Origin: a virus
Direction: 5' to 3' (one strand)
IMG/VR virus record: IMGVR_UViG_3300037041_000889
Location: 1 to 27,176 of that record
Length of the DNA stretch: 27,176 nt
The notes beneath the pieces were generated by a model. It was not told the DNA's origin, ran no database searches, and saw only the letters and a list, made by a program, of their open reading frames with translations. Shown in pieces: positions 1 through 24,724 of the stretch. A program made the position numbers and the translations under genes. Position 1 is the stretch's first letter; each line of letters starts with the position of its first letter.

Positions 1-669
1 GTTCGAGCCTTACAAACTGGAGGCGTTGGTGTTGGTGCGTTCTTTTCAACTACATCCGTTCAGATTAGCCCAATCGATACAGACGTTACATTCGATCTAT
101 TTACACCGTCGTTAACAGTCGGTAACTTTTCAGATTGCAGCGATCAAAAAGGAACTGAATATTTCAAATTAGAAGGGTGTAATGCTGACAACCAATTCGG
201 GATGGTGTTTAGTGGCGTTGATTTTATTCCGGGCGTTCGTGTTCCGGGTAGATTCTTTAGGGCGCAATACGATACAGACGTTGATCTATTCAGATTTAGT
301 TCAGGTAGAAGAACAACGGCTTATGCGGACGTATCAAAGCGAAAGACTTTATACATTCAACAACAACCTGAATACGTATTTGACTTCTTATCCAAGTTGA
401 TTTATTTCGATTCGGTTTATATCAATGGCATCGCACACGCACCAGTTGAAGAAGATTTCCCTGATATTGAATGGAACGACGCGAATCAATTAGGTAACTG
501 TGAAATTGAATTCTATGTACGTGAAGAAAAGATAACTAAGGTAGATTGTAGCGGTGCGACTGCTAATTGCGCTCCGACTGTTTCAAATCCACCAAACACA
601 TTACTACTTCAAGACAATACGAACTTACTGCTGCAAAATAATGAGTTATTGCTTTTACAAAGCGAATAG
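1..669 (+). CDS. Virion-type protein with LLLQ-repeat tail (5' partial)
   Basis: The frame is open from the first base of the window, so the start lies upstream and only the last 222 codons are seen. I recognise no enzyme motif. The visible part is acidic and rich in beta-type residues, and it sits beside other virion genes, which suggests a structural protein (inference). The last about 25 residues are unusual: three short units, LLLQDN, LLLQNN and LLLLQSE, follow a PPNT linker. A closely similar tail is encoded just after the capsid gene stop codon in the -1 frame (8602-8682), so the segment looks like a shared virion tag or assembly motif. ATG codons inside this frame (for example 202) are internal and not starts. 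The promoter for the next gene begins inside the 3' end of this one. Confidence 0.6.
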   Translation, partial: VRALQTGGVGVGAFFSTTSVQISPIDTDVTFDLFTPSLTVGNFSDCSDQKGTEYFKLEGCNADNQFGMVFSGVDFIPGVRVPGRFFRAQYDTDVDLFRFSSGRRTTAYADVSKRKTLYIQQQPEYVFDFLSKLIYFDSVYINGIAHAPVEEDFPDIEWNDANQLGNCEIEFYVREEKITKVDCSGATANCAPTVSNPPNTLLLQDNTNLLLQNNELLLLQSE

Positions 670-7555: not shown

Positions 7556-8608
7556 ATGTCAATTTCACGCATTCTATCGGAGTGTCCAGAAATGCAGCGT
7601 CCATTGGGCGAGTTGTTCTTAGAAGCACCTGCACGTGAGCCACTACCTTACTTAGAGTATCTTAACTCTGACCTTAATTCATCTTTAATCAAAACAGAAG
7701 TATCACCGGGCGGTGGTAAACTTCGTAAAGTTCAAGCTCGTTGGATTCAGCGTTTACCTGAATCAATCGCTGTTGAAGGTGCAGACATCAAAAATTGTTC
7801 TGCTACTGAAGAATACGGCGACAACACTCAGACTTACGAATTGTCAACTACTGACACTATCCAAGTAAGCCAAAAGATCGACGCTGAAACAATTGCAACG
7901 CACTGTCAAGAGAACAGCCGTTACGTAGTTGAATCAATCGCTCGTTTGGCTAATGCTTTGGAACGTGCTGTTGCGACTAAGGTAGCAACTGAAACGGCTG
8001 CTGAAATAGGTGCTTGGGGAACTGAGGTTGAAGATTTCTTTACTGTTACTGACAACAAACTTGAAATCGCAACTTTGCTTTCTTCAGGTGACATCGCTCC
8101 GTTTGCACTTCAGAACATCGCACAAGCAACTCAAATGGCTGCTTATCCGGGTGCTTATGTTGGATTCGGTGGTGCTGCTATGAATCAGTACGCTATGCAA
8201 ATTATGGCGGGTTGTTGCGCTCAGTACGGTATCGACTTGTCGGCTGTGCTTGCTCAATACGGATTCGCATTTGCATACGATCAGCGTCTTGCAACTGCAT
8301 TAGGTGGTCAAACTCAAAACTTGATTACTACACCTGGTGCAATTCAGTTGTTATCTTACAATCTTGCTTCTTGGAACGCAGGTCTATCTGATTCGCTTCG
8401 TGGCGGTAACGGATATTCACGCACACAAGTATTCGGTGCAACTGGTTTACCTATCGATTTGACTATGAAAGATGATTGCGGTGACTTGTCTATCGTAATG
8501 ACTTTCACTGGTAAGATCGTAACAATGCCAGACGACTTGTTCGAGGCTTCTGATAAGTACGCAGGTGTTAAATACGTTAACCAAGTTTCAATCGTAAACC
8601 CGTCCTAA
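7556..8608 (+). CDS. Major capsid protein
   Basis: 350 residues from ATG 7556. Identification rests on position (portal, minor head, scaffold, then this), size and expression signs. Arg codons are almost all CGT or CGC, while flanking genes mix in CGA and AGA, as expected for the most highly expressed virion gene. The gene has its own leader and terminator. The protein alternates helices and strands with Ala/Gly-rich parts (AAYPGAYVGFGGAAMNQYAM), in line with an HK97-type fold, which is not provable by eye. The zero-frame end is SIVNPS; a -1 frameshift at 8596-8602 would replace the last residue with a 26-residue tail, giving a 375-residue minor form. Confidence 0.8.
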   Translation: MSISRILSECPEMQRPLGELFLEAPAREPLPYLEYLNSDLNSSLIKTEVSPGGGKLRKVQARWIQRLPESIAVEGADIKNCSATEEYGDNTQTYELSTTDTIQVSQKIDAETIATHCQENSRYVVESIARLANALERAVATKVATETAAEIGAWGTEVEDFFTVTDNKLEIATLLSSGDIAPFALQNIAQATQMAAYPGAYVGFGGAAMNQYAMQIMAGCCAQYGIDLSAVLAQYGFAFAYDQRLATALGGQTQNLITTPGAIQLLSYNLASWNAGLSDSLRGGNGYSRTQVFGATGLPIDLTMKDDCGDLSIVMTFTGKIVTMPDDLFEASDKYAGVKYVNQVSIVNPS

Positions 8609-8632
8609 GTCCTGAGGCTTTACTGCTTCAGG
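8596..8632 (+). promoter_or_regulatory. Probable programmed -1 frameshift signal
   Basis: The heptamer A AAC CCG (8596-8602) has the canonical X XXY YYZ form in the capsid reading frame. It is followed by an 8-base spacer that contains the capsid TAA and then by an 8-bp hairpin (8611-8618 with 8625-8632, one G-U pair, 6-base loop). Spacing and order match known -1 sites. Y = C is less usual than A or T, so efficiency may be low, which would suit a minor tagged capsid form. Confidence 0.6.
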
Positions 8633-8682
8633 ACGGAGAATTTATACTTCTCCAAAATGACGATTTATTGAATCTACAATAA
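8602..8682 (+). other. -1 frame C-terminal extension of the capsid protein
   Basis: After the slip, 26 codons are read to TAA at 8680-8682: VLSPEA, then LLLQDGEF, ILLQNDD and LLNLQ. The frame has stop codons at 8569 and 8578 and no ATG, GTG or TTG between them and the tail, so it cannot be translated on its own. The pattern P-x-x-LLLQD-x3-(L/I)LLQN-x2-LL-x-LQ also ends the protein at 1-669, which argues that this is coding sequence. The extension ends just before the terminator. Confidence 0.6.
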
Positions 8683-8683
8683 G

Positions 8684-8716
8684 ATAAAGGCGGCTCAATG
8701 TCGCCTTTATTTTTTT
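8684..8716 (+). terminator. Intrinsic terminator of the capsid unit
   Basis: A 9-bp stem, ATAAAGGCG (8684-8692) with CGCCTTTAT (8702-8710), a 9-base loop and a run of T. Confidence 0.85.
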
Positions 8717-13780: not shown

Positions 13781-13788
13781 TATATTTG
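13781..13788 (+). promoter_or_regulatory. TAnnTTTG box of the endonuclease gene
   Basis: TATATTTG ends 3 bases before ATG 13792, again a leaderless-type spacing. It gives this inserted gene its own expression. Confidence 0.4.
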
Positions 13789-13791
13789 TAT

Positions 13792-14559
13792 ATGCAATAT
13801 AAGGTATATCACATTCGGCATATTTCAGATAAACGAGTTGTATATGTAGGCCTTACTAAGGGTTATTTATCGGCTCGTTTTTCTTCTCATTTAAAAGACG
13901 AAAGAAGAAACAAAAAGAAGGTTAACTATTTTAGGTGTCATAAAAAAGACCTTGAAATAGTTTCAGTTTATGATGGTATAGAATCTCTTTCTAAGGCCAA
14001 TCAACTTGAAAAAGACGAAATTAAAAGGTTAAAAGATTTAGGTGTAAGACTTTTAAATGCGACAGAAGGAGGAGATGGGACAAAAGGTTTTACCTCATGG
14101 AACTCAGGAGTAAAATGCTATTACATTGATAAGATAATTAAATCTTCTCCGAATTTAAAAAAGGTTTATTGTTATGATTTAGAGGGTAACTTTATTGAAG
14201 AATTTAGGTCTATAAAATACGCATCAATAAAAACAAAATGCACAAGAGTTGCGATAAGTAACATTGCTAAACAATCGGCAAAATACAAGCAGTCGAAAGG
14301 ATTTCAGTTTCGTTTTTATAAACAAGACAAAATTGATCGCGTTACTTATAATGATGAATATAGAATACAGAAGGCTGTTAAAGCAATAAGGGATAAATCA
14401 AAAAAGATTTTATGCTTAGATTTATTAAGTGGACAAGCAAAAGAGTTTTGTAATATTTTTGAGTGCGAAAAAGAATTATTTATAAAAAAGGGAAGCATTT
14501 ACGCATCAATAAGAGCAGACAGAAATTGTTTTAAAAAATATAAATTTCAATTTGTTTAA
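13792..14559 (+). CDS. GIY-YIG homing endonuclease with NUMOD-like repeats
   Basis: 255 residues from ATG 13792; a TTG six bases upstream lies inside the promoter box and is rejected. The N-terminal GIY-YIG domain shows KVYHIRH (the GIY strand), VVYVGLT (the YIG strand), the catalytic-type Arg in SARFSSH and the Glu in ANQLEKDEI. The C-terminal half has two repeats, KKVYCYDLEGNFIEEFRSI... and KKILCLDLLSGQAKEFCNI..., each like NUMOD1-type DNA-recognition modules. Such enzymes cut DNA lacking the element and spread by repair. The gene is visibly richer in A+T than its neighbours and follows an amidase remnant, both signs of insertion. Confidence 0.8.
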   Translation: MQYKVYHIRHISDKRVVYVGLTKGYLSARFSSHLKDERRNKKKVNYFRCHKKDLEIVSVYDGIESLSKANQLEKDEIKRLKDLGVRLLNATEGGDGTKGFTSWNSGVKCYYIDKIIKSSPNLKKVYCYDLEGNFIEEFRSIKYASIKTKCTRVAISNIAKQSAKYKQSKGFQFRFYKQDKIDRVTYNDEYRIQKAVKAIRDKSKKILCLDLLSGQAKEFCNIFECEKELFIKKGSIYASIRADRNCFKKYKFQFV

Positions 14560-16598: not shown

Positions 16599-17177
16599 GT
16601 GTCCGTTTTGTTTCTGTTGGATAATTCCTCCCAATGCCTTTACGCTAAATGCGACAAGGACGGGCGAATTACCTACCGAAACGAACTGTTTAAATCCACA
16701 TTTAACCACATAAAGCCAACCGAATTTAAACACCTTGTATCGGATAACGAAGATCAAGACGAGGTTGATGCAGCGTTTAAATGGACTGACAAACATAAGA
16801 ACCTATCCAAGCCGTTTAACTGCCGTACAATACAGCGCAATGGCGTATATCGTTGGGTAGGTTGGGAGGTATTTAACTTATCGGGCGAATATCATTTAAC
16901 TGGTGTGCTACTGTTTGACGTGGTTAGTGCTACATCGCATAAGTACGAAAAGATCAAGAAACAACTCGAAGATATTACAGCGTTTATTTCGCACGAGTTT
17001 AGACAGCCGTTAAAGTCAGTAGTCGGACTGATTGGAATACTTCAGCAGATCGACAAGAAATCCGATCCAGTCGAATATGATAAGGTGTTGCAGATGATTA
17101 AGGATTCGGCAAGTCAACTCGACGATGTTTTTATACGTGCAATTGAACGGGGGCAGTTAGGTGAAAATACCTATTGA
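16599..17177 (+). CDS. PAS-HisKA protein lacking the kinase ATPase domain
   Basis: 192 residues with a GTG start at 16599; no ATG lies upstream in frame. Residues about 8-112 form a PAS-like sensor domain (CLYAKCDKDGRITYRNELF ... GVYRWVGWEVFNLSGEYHLTGVLLFDV). Residues about 118-180 form a HisKA dimerisation domain with the H-box ISHEFRQPL, phospho-accepting His at 132. The chain then ends, without N, G1 or G2 boxes of the HATPase domain. There is no membrane segment. It cannot phosphorylate itself alone but could dimerise with, accept phosphate from, or titrate a host kinase or response regulator (inference). Confidence 0.75.
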   Translation: MSVLFLLDNSSQCLYAKCDKDGRITYRNELFKSTFNHIKPTEFKHLVSDNEDQDEVDAAFKWTDKHKNLSKPFNCRTIQRNGVYRWVGWEVFNLSGEYHLTGVLLFDVVSATSHKYEKIKKQLEDITAFISHEFRQPLKSVVGLIGILQQIDKKSDPVEYDKVLQMIKDSASQLDDVFIRAIERGQLGENTY

Positions 17178-23408: not shown

Positions 23409-23527
23409 ACGTTCAGAGGTCGAAGCCTGAATCGAAAGAAATTAAACCGCCCAATACGGGCTGCGAGGTAAGGTAGTTAAGACTACTAAACCGCTTCGAC
23501 CGCAGCTTGTATTGGGCTTTTTGTTTT
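23409..23527 (+). ncRNA. Structured RNA with complementary loops, ending before the methyltransferase gene
   Basis: A 5-bp hairpin TTCAG/CTGAA (23412-23416, 23427-23431) presents a 10-base loop. A 17-bp helix (23449-23465 with 23501-23517, two G-U pairs) is followed by a T run and is a strong terminator. Inside its 35-base loop is a second hairpin, GGTAGT (23472-23477)/ACTACT (23482-23487), extended by GGT/ACC across an AA/AA internal loop. GGTCGAAGC (23418-23426) in the first loop is the exact complement of GCTTCGACC (23493-23501) in the terminator loop, making a 9-bp pseudoknot. No ORF lies inside. It may be a free regulatory RNA or an attenuator for the gene at 23531. Confidence 0.6.
23449..23526 (+). 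terminator. Terminator of the structured RNA
   Basis: 17-bp stem with a large structured loop and TTTTTGTTTT; the T run ends 4 bases before the methyltransferase ATG, so it stands in the position of an attenuator. Confidence 0.7.
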
Positions 23528-23530
23528 GGA

Positions 23531-24724
23531 ATGAAGCACGGATCATTATTTTCAGGAATTGGCGGCTTTGATTTAGCTGCCGAATGGATGGGTTGGCAAA
23601 ATGTATTTCACTGTGAGTGGAATGAGTTTGGACAAAAAGTTTTACATCATCACTTCCCTAATTCAATAAGTTACAATGACATCACACAAACAGACTTCAC
23701 TATTCACAGAGGACACATTGACATCCTTACCGGAGGATTTCCTTGCCAACCATATTCAGCCGCAGGAAAACGACTTGGAAAGGAAGATGACCGCCACCTT
23801 TGGCCGGAAATGCTTAGAGCGATTCGAGAAATTCAACCGACATGGGTCGTGGGCGAAAACGTTCTCGGCCTTGTTAATTGGAACGGGGGGCTGGTATTCG
23901 ACGAAGTGCAGACTGATCTGGAAGCTCAAGGGTACGAAGTACAACCGTATGTACTTCCAGCTTGTGCCGTCAACGCTCCCCACCGAAGGGATCGAGTTTG
24001 GTTTGTTGCCTACCGCAACGGCATCGGACGCGACGAGCGGAGCGGTGATCGGGAAAAACGACACTTTTCACTTGACGAAAAACGGAACGCCTCGCAAAGT
24101 GAATCAGAACGGAGTGAATGGATCAGTGGGGCTGGGGAGATATGCAGCGATGGATCTGCTTCCAACTCCCAAACTCCTGAAAACACCTTGCGCAGCGGAT
24201 GCTCACTCGGAGAATCTGAGCAAGAAGGAGCAGAAATTTGGGAATTCGGGGACATTAGCTCAGGAGGTTCAGACGGGATTTATTTATCAGAGGGGGATGC
24301 TTCCAACCCCGCGAGCAAATCAGGTGAACGGCTGCGACCTGAACAGCGAGAACTTAGCCAACAGGAACAAGGGGAACTTGGAGGAAACAGTAGCGAGTTG
24401 GGTGGTGAATCAGATGCTTCCTACACCAGTAGCAGGGGAATACAGGGACACGGGAGAGAAAGTATCAACAGGAAATTTCAAACAAATGAATTTGACAAGA
24501 ACAATAGCAAAGGGAAACAGCGAATGGACTGGCGAGAATTCCCAACTCAATCCCCGATTTGTAGCAGAAATGATGGGGTTTCCTTCAAACTGGACGGAAT
24601 TACCTTTCCAAAGTGGCGAAATGAATCAATAAAGGCCTATGGTAATGCAGTCGTGCCACAAGTCGTTTATCAAATCTTTAAAGCTATTGAACAATACAAT
24701 AAAAAAATGAACGATGGAAAGTAG
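23531..24724 (+). CDS. DNA (cytosine-5) methyltransferase
   Basis: 397 residues from ATG 23531; an in-frame TTG at 23507 lies inside the terminator stem and is rejected. Motif I is LFSGIGGFDLA (6-16). Motif IV GGFPCQPYS carries the catalytic C72. Motif VI is ENV (E109). Motif VIII-like APHRRDRVWFVA follows. The end has motif X-like ESIKAYGNAVVPQV. It transfers a methyl group from SAM to C5 of cytosine in a DNA target, probably to escape host restriction. No restriction enzyme is nearby. The variable region between VIII and X is hydrophilic and low in complexity (S, G, E, R), most likely because a second ORF occupies the same DNA. No promoter is seen between the upstream terminator and ATG. 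Confidence 0.85.
   Translation: MKHGSLFSGIGGFDLAAEWMGWQNVFHCEWNEFGQKVLHHHFPNSISYNDITQTDFTIHRGHIDILTGGFPCQPYSAAGKRLGKEDDRHLWPEMLRAIREIQPTWVVGENVLGLVNWNGGLVFDEVQTDLEAQGYEVQPYVLPACAVNAPHRRDRVWFVAYRNGIGRDERSGDREKRHFSLDEKRNASQSESERSEWISGAGEICSDGSASNSQTPENTLRSGCSLGESEQEGAEIWEFGDISSGGSDGIYLSEGDASNPASKSGERLRPEQRELSQQEQGELGGNSSELGGESDASYTSSRGIQGHGRESINRKFQTNEFDKNNSKGKQRMDWREFPTQSPICSRNDGVSFKLDGITFPKWRNESIKAYGNAVVPQVVYQIFKAIEQYNKKMNDGK
23676..24632 (+). CDS. Overlapping ORF inside the methyltransferase gene
   Basis: 318 codons in the +1 frame relative to the methyltransferase. The protein looks genuine: hydrophobic and aromatic residues are evenly placed (SWAKTFSALLIGTGGW, STKCRLIWKLKGTKYNRMYF), the phrase LLPT recurs several times, and near the end stands LNPRFVAEMMGFPSNW. 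From memory this ending and the repeated LLPTP are shared by a family of phage proteins found with cytosine methyltransferases. ATG 23676 lies after methyltransferase codon 48, and the ORF covers motifs IV to VIII and the target-recognition region. Function unknown; a partner or specificity protein of the methyltransferase is possible. It has no obvious ribosome-binding site. Confidence 0.55.
   Translation: MTSHKQTSLFTEDTLTSLPEDFLANHIQPQENDLERKMTATFGRKCLERFEKFNRHGSWAKTFSALLIGTGGWYSTKCRLIWKLKGTKYNRMYFQLVPSTLPTEGIEFGLLPTATASDATSGAVIGKNDTFHLTKNGTPRKVNQNGVNGSVGLGRYAAMDLLPTPKLLKTPCAADAHSENLSKKEQKFGNSGTLAQEVQTGFIYQRGMLPTPRANQVNGCDLNSENLANRNKGNLEETVASWVVNQMLPTPVAGEYRDTGEKVSTGNFKQMNLTRTIAKGNSEWTGENSQLNPRFVAEMMGFPSNWTELPFQSGEMNQ

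Follow-up and report, generated by a model that had tools for sequence, protein, structure and literature searches.

A probable programmed -1 frameshift in the last codons of the capsid gene in a large family of uncultivated phages

Does the major capsid gene of this virus give rise to one product or to two? The question is raised by the 3' end of the gene in the DNA analysed here (termed the window, i.e., all 27,176 nucleotides of IMG/VR record IMGVR_UViG_3300037041_000889), where the capsid frame overlaps a second open frame displaced by -1. The initial annotation proposed that programmed frameshifting would tag a fraction of the capsid protein with the product of the second frame. We consider programmed -1 ribosomal frameshifting at the end of this gene to be very probable from the comparative evidence: the joint change of heptamer and tail, the selection acting on the tail, the covariation of the hairpin and the HK97 fold predicted for the capsid protein all support such a reading. 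The occurrence of the shift, its efficiency and the incorporation of the tailed form into virions are matters that we infer from sequence.

The capsid gene and the anatomy of its 3' end

The features of the junction are listed in Table 1. The capsid ORF ends in ATC GTA AAC CCG TCC TAA, and the heptamer A_AAC_CCG lies in register two codons before the stop, as originally described. The -1 frame is open from position 8581 to 8682, and no ATG, GTG or TTG occurs upstream of the repeats in this frame of the window, in keeping with the earlier description of 26 open codons devoid of a start codon of their own. The 6-base loop of the hairpin was likewise confirmed, whereas the reported 8-base spacer and 8-bp stem are in fact 6 nt and 10 bp; the earlier figures differ because only the inner 8 pairs had been counted. 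The folding z-score is -4.8 for the window hairpin(s) and -6.3 for the 60 nt that follow the heptamer. The terminator-like hairpin and T run are located directly after the tail stop, and the capsid mRNA may therefore end there.

Table 1. Features of the capsid gene junction and of the related tail in the window
Feature	Position	Strand	Basis
Predicted major capsid protein ORF, 350 aa, zero frame, stop TAA at 8606-8608	7556-8608	+	HK97-fold model, gene order
Candidate slippery heptamer A_AAC_CCG; zero-frame codons AAC CCG, -1 codons AAA CCC	8596-8602	+	Kept in relatives
Spacer TCCTAA, 6 nt, containing the zero-frame stop	8603-8608	+	Stem spacing across tail families
Putative stimulatory hairpin, 10 bp including one G-U, 6-nt loop TTTACT	8609-8634	+	Folding, covariation and synonymous-shuffle tests
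Second hairpin GGAGAA/TTCTCC, 6 bp, in the window clade, inside the tail codons; role uncertain	8635-8653	+	
-1 frame tail, 26 codons plus TAA, VLSPEALLLQDGEFILLQNDDLLNLQ	8602-8682	+	Family-wide conservation, selection
C-terminal tail NTLLLQDNTNLLLQNNELLLLQSE in the zero frame of ORF 1-669, which encodes the (truncated) ~550-aa carbohydrate-binding-like protein	595-669	+	
Terminator-like hairpin AAAGGCG...CGCCTTT plus T run, directly 3' of the tail stop	8687-8711	+	Read off the sequence

The computed mass of the unshifted product (350 aa) is 37.65 kDa, and that of the slip product (375 aa) is 40.47 kDa, the predicted sequence after the slip being VLSPEALLLQDGEFILLQNDDLLNLQ. The predicted tailed form would be distinguished by peptides beginning YVNQVSIVNPVLSPE and YVNQVSIVNPVLSPEALLLQDG and by the junction ...VNPV..., while YVNQVSIVNPS is a peptide of the zero-frame end of the capsid protein.

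The capsid protein found no match in sequence-family searches, and none by tblastn against 50,697 GenBank phage records, where sequence homology to T7-like capsids was thus not encountered; searches of GenBank phages with the capsid protein, the ~550-aa protein, the portal and the tail alone were equally without match. The AlphaFold model of the 350-aa protein (pLDDT 75.5, pTM 0.76) has as its top PDB fold matches HK97-fold capsids and encapsulins (8zdk/8zdh; best E 1e-10). The gene order agrees with such an assignment, as a portal gene (phrog_7376) and a MuF-like gene (weak PF04233) precede the ORF. On its predicted structure, the 350-aa product is an HK97-fold major capsid protein.

Several other ORFs of the window were noted. 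A 192-aa ORF (16599-17177) contains a HisKA phospho-acceptor domain (PF00512, E 7.7e-7, HEFRQP box) but gave no match to an ATPase domain, and its product appears to be a truncated histidine-kinase-like phage protein; similar HELRQP stretches occur in L109 and L138. An ORF at 13786-14559 resembles a homing endonuclease (GIY-YIG and NUMOD1), and one at 23507-24724 a C5 cytosine DNA methylase (PF00145), the latter overlapped by a putative 318-aa ORF (23676-24632) on the same strand in another frame. Between the structural genes (1358-2808) lie an unassigned 308-aa ORF and an O-methyltransferase-like ORF (PF01596), and sugar modification is possible. Two scans of bacterial and archaeal genomes found no provirus relatives. 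The Bacteroidota promoter motif TANNTTTG showed no enrichment over shuffles in the window and was therefore not used as evidence.

Conservation of the heptamer, the tail and the hairpin

The family of uncultivated phages to which the window belongs is large, a single IMG/VR scan having yielded 226 matching contigs, and relatives were assessed as 172 distinct capsid 3' junctions obtained from IMG/VR scans. A -1 tail composed of (L/I)(L/I)x(E/Q)-like repeats is present in 127 of the 172; among these tail-bearers AAACCCR occurs in 122 and only C_CCR in the remaining 5. One of the 122 (L029) carries an FQ-type tail that the motif of our script missed; it was assigned on visual inspection. Outside this site, in-register AAACCC appears 8 times in 46,346 codons of the capsid ORFs. 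The last zero-frame codons of the tail-bearers are NNA, AAC and CCG/CCA (the five C_CCR-only sequences aside), and the tail-less relatives additionally use GTT, AAT and CCT at the capsid end, mostly in the forms GTT AAC CCT, GTA AAT CCT, GTA AAC GCT or GTT AAC TCA; AAACCCR is retained in 7 distinct tail-less relatives. Heptamer, spacing, hairpin and -1 tail are all kept in related capsid genes, and these features are conserved across capsids that are only 58-62% identical. The initial annotation had regarded the lack of a conserved tail in related phages as fatal to its proposal; the tail proved to be conserved, and the lineages without it are mostly without the heptamer too. Its judgement that chance is unlikely also holds, because many independent assemblies share the arrangement.

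On a tree of the capsid proteins, constructed without their last residues, the -1 tail changes about 17-18 times. Among 13 supported independent pairs that differ in the tail, the slippery core (AAACCCR or CCCR) changes in the same direction in 10.3 on average and in the opposite direction in 0 (median p ~0.002). A direct natural experiment on heptamer and tail is provided by the near twins L001 and L002, one of which has AAACCCA and a tail and the other GTTAACTCA and no tail.

Read in the -1 frame, the tail bears the mark of purifying selection. Differences in 38 non-overlapping sequence pairs are distributed over -1-frame codon positions 1, 2 and 3 as 43/29/68, as against an even 139/127/139 directly 3' of the tail stop. 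The rough dN/dS of the tail is 0.31 in the -1 frame, 0.88 in the zero frame and 1.84 in the +1 frame, and for comparison the last 30 codons of the capsid gene give 0.22. A sequencing error, the other objection anticipated at the outset, is excluded because many independent contigs show purifying selection in the -1 frame.

Across 51 tail families, the distance from CCCR to the first stem of at least 4 bp is 5-6 nt in 43 and 3-4 nt in the other 8. In an ungapped alignment of 52 sequences, 99 cells of a 13-pair stem have both sides changed (33.6 +/- 4.6 in shuffled alignments; 11-36 in slid registers), and the base of the stem was also chosen by RNAalifold on its own. Scores against dinucleotide shuffles proved non-discriminating, since tail-less junctions reach a similar mean z (-3.5), probably due to terminators, and were therefore replaced by a synonymous-shuffle test, which preserves the amino acids, with an in-frame tail as control. 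By this test the tail hairpin has a mean z of -4.4 (p<=0.05 in 49 of 51), whereas the in-frame tail of the ~550-aa gene, at which no hairpin was detected, has z = -0.19 (5 of 38; p 1.4e-15 for the difference by the Mann-Whitney test). Such a small value in the control shows that the need to encode repeats of this kind does not by itself produce the hairpin.

Proposed mechanism, alternatives and probable changes of decoding route

The junction combines an in-register X_XXY_YYZ heptamer in the frame overlap, a 3' structure at a suitable distance (about 5-9 nt being expected of a frameshift cassette) and a conserved -1 frame under protein-level selection. By analogy with established -1 frameshifting, some ribosomes would shift one base back at A_AAC_CCR by tandem slippage, in which AAC-CCR re-pairs as AAA-CCC. 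The shift would be aided by the stop at, or one codon past, the site and by the hairpin starting 5-6 nt downstream, both of which would slow the ribosome. Shifted ribosomes would bypass the zero-frame stop and add ~24-30 residues, i.e., three short (L/I)(L/I)x(E/Q) repeats, and the outcome would be a major untailed capsid protein (350 aa) together with a minor tailed form (375 aa in the window). To our knowledge, A_AAC_CCG is not one of the slippery heptamers usually described from bacteria, and five sequences (L375, L382, L225, L192, L228) have AAY_GTC_CCG_TAA in place of A_AAC_CCR, without the AAA part, so that the tRNA movements given above are tentative in detail.

These five sequences, whose tails and hairpins are intact and which retain only C_CCG beside the stop, also favor a variant of the mechanism in which only C_CCR near the stop matters: peptidyl-tRNA-Pro alone would slip by -1, and AAA would be a mere enhancer. 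Similarly, L237 has GCC_CCG_TAA at the proper hairpin distance. Such C_CCR-only lineages suggest that the proline codon may be the core of the slip site. On the other hand, AAA is retained in 122 of the 127 tail-bearers, and the stop of the window is one codon further on and is consequently not adjacent to CCG, so that we regard a single-tRNA slip as the general route as rather unlikely, with some appreciable weight left to it.

It is far less probable that the -1 stretch encodes a separate small protein, made by termination and reinitiation from a non-AUG codon after the capsid stop. The capsid stop and the tail do overlap closely, and an ATG, GTG or TTG is found within -30 to +12 of the stop in 30 of 85 relatives, but no start codon is conserved: the -1 frame contains none in that interval in the other 55, and the window has none before the repeats. 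Moreover, reinitiation would leave the retention of AAACCCR inside the capsid ORF of the tail-bearers unexplained. As general mechanisms, readthrough and reinitiation were both rejected, given that the zero frame of the tail-bearers mostly closes within six codons of the stop (median 3) and that a conserved start is missing.

An unexpressed relic, left when an indel displaced an ancestral in-frame tail, is highly improbable: tails have been lost repeatedly, and the state of L449/L227 (AAACTCG with a +1-frame tail) resembles decay, but a relic is contradicted by -1-frame purifying selection, by the excess of third-position differences, by compensatory changes in the hairpin and by conservation across divergent capsids. 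Transcriptional slippage or sequencing error could in principle yield the same fused protein and merits equally little credence, as polymerase slippage usually needs a homopolymer run longer than any in AAACCC, the hairpin spacing is tight at 5-6 nt, and many independent assemblies agree.

Programmed -1 frameshifting, as the predominant route, appears to have been exchanged for another in one clade. Six sequences (L369-L373 and L386) lack the heptamer; their capsid frame closes with AAY GCN TGA, and behind this stop the zero frame reads (I/M)(T/A)ELNLL(T/A)ED(G/D)SDLTTE...NLL(V/A). They possess the only TGA stops among the 172 junctions, always as TGA-A, and the tree, which includes four of them, places those four together as a single clade (support 99) within the -1 group. 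TGA serves as an ordinary stop of neighbouring genes in this clade and does not occur internally. The hairpin is retained, 4 nt behind the stop. In the deeper splits the tail differs by 7-15% and the DNA directly behind it by 25-43%, with too few differences for synonymous and nonsynonymous counts. Reinitiation is conceivable in L369, where ATG directly follows the stop, but the corresponding codon is ATA in 5 of the 6. From these sequence features, UGA readthrough has probably replaced -1 frameshifting in the clade. The tail may be the ancestral one in a new frame or may have been gained anew, e.g., from the ~550-aa gene, whose tail style (TTE..INL) it resembles. L069 and L238 were noted alongside the TGA junctions of this clade. 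The coat/A1 system of RNA phage Q-beta, in which a minor coat extension is produced via UGA readthrough, would work like this clade; Q-beta is nevertheless an unrelated ssRNA phage with a long extension domain and unrelated proteins.

In L449 (same contig as L227) the heptamer is broken (AAACTCG), the tail is found only in the +1 frame and the hairpin is intact (-25 kcal/mol), a state that possibly reflects decay, an assembly error or indel, or a +1 frameshift site.

The tail of the ~550-aa protein and the meaning of the proposed capsid recoding

The protein encoded at 1-669 ends in frame with a similar tail, NTLLLQDNTNLLLQNNELLLLQSE, as stated in the initial annotation. This ORF is the C-terminal part of a ~550-aa protein whose gene was found in 37 of 39 records searched; all 37 copies close in frame with a similarly styled tail, such that a frameshift is never needed, and the tail is present even in genomes with a tail-less capsid. 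Among six near-complete relatives, no other protein with a recognisable tail was found. The description of this tail as one used also by another virion protein thus stands with respect to the tail, while the assignment of the protein to the virion is deduced solely from its fold and its neighbouring genes. The ~550-aa protein is modelled as beta-rich, with parts that resemble carbohydrate-binding modules (CBM22; CenC-like phage proteins), but the TM-scores are low and a role assigned from the predicted fold would therefore be a guess. Its last 48 residues are modelled with very low confidence and are probably disordered. In Polaribacter phage P12002S, a fold match of the ~550-aa protein, there is no capsid match to the present family.

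In the G007/G011 lineage both tails are of an unusual, FQ-rich type (capsid, FQDGFAFQFQSGEDFDFQ; ~550-aa protein, IFQDTNPFIFQDGEYFGFN), which, together with the window clade, suggests that the two tails may evolve together. As a similar tail is always in frame on the ~550-aa protein, the capsid tail may be a small docking or assembly tag, placing the capsid and the ~550-aa protein against the same partner or against each other. We advance this role tentatively, and any partner would be speculative; a simple model of docking between the two proteins is weakened by the evolutionary dispensability of the capsid tail, given that the ~550-aa protein has kept its own.

Recoding near the end of a head protein gene has precedents. 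As proposed for the present gene, ribosomes shift by -1 towards the end of the major capsid gene 10 (10A/10B) of T7 and T3, and a minor longer form results (PMC5009743); C-terminally extended head proteins arise by recoding in Lactobacillus phage A2 (gp5), in Listeria phages A118 and A500 (-1) and in PSA (+1), the site of which also includes a proline codon, CCC (PMC5009743). T7 and T3 differ from the present family in slippery site and tail, the extension being an Ig-like domain in T3 though not in T7, whereas here the tail consists of ~26 aa in three repeats and is common to another protein of the same phage. The A2 extension is also Ig-like and PSA shifts by +1, whereas the present family combines a hairpin and a tail of short repeats with a predicted -1 shift at A_AAC_CCR. 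By fold search, the putatively recoded gene is of the same type as those of T7 gp10B and A2 gp5, an HK97-fold major capsid gene, and on sequence the present recoding would work like that of T7 gene 10 or A2 gp5 and is not a member of those gene families. According to Fraser et al. 2006 as cited in PMC5009743, phage proteins have gained Ig-like domains through in-frame fusion as well as through -1 and +1 shifts. To the extent of that citation, one type of extension follows different decoding routes in different phages, as here; Ig-like domains, however, move between unrelated phages, whereas here the route (-1, UGA) appears to change within one capsid family.

The overall picture, to which we would assign nearly even chances, is that of one family in which the tag is kept as a minor form while its decoding changes: most lineages would shift by -1 at A_AAC_CCR, some at C_CCR alone, one clade would read through UGA, and L449 might shift by +1. 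The repeat module, which is also permanently fused to the carbohydrate-binding-like protein, would then be a docking motif of controlled dose that ties this protein, or its partner, to a few capsid positions. Knowledge of capsid-gene recoding has been based on few cultured phages; here the site, the hairpin, the tail and their repeated joint loss can be traced on a tree, and A_AAC_CCR may be added to the candidate -1 sites. A tailed capsid protein of this kind would be overlooked by standard annotation. Finally, the probable exchange of frameshifting for readthrough of a stop codon in one clade, with the product kept, would amount to a natural test of what selects for a minor tailed fraction of the capsid.
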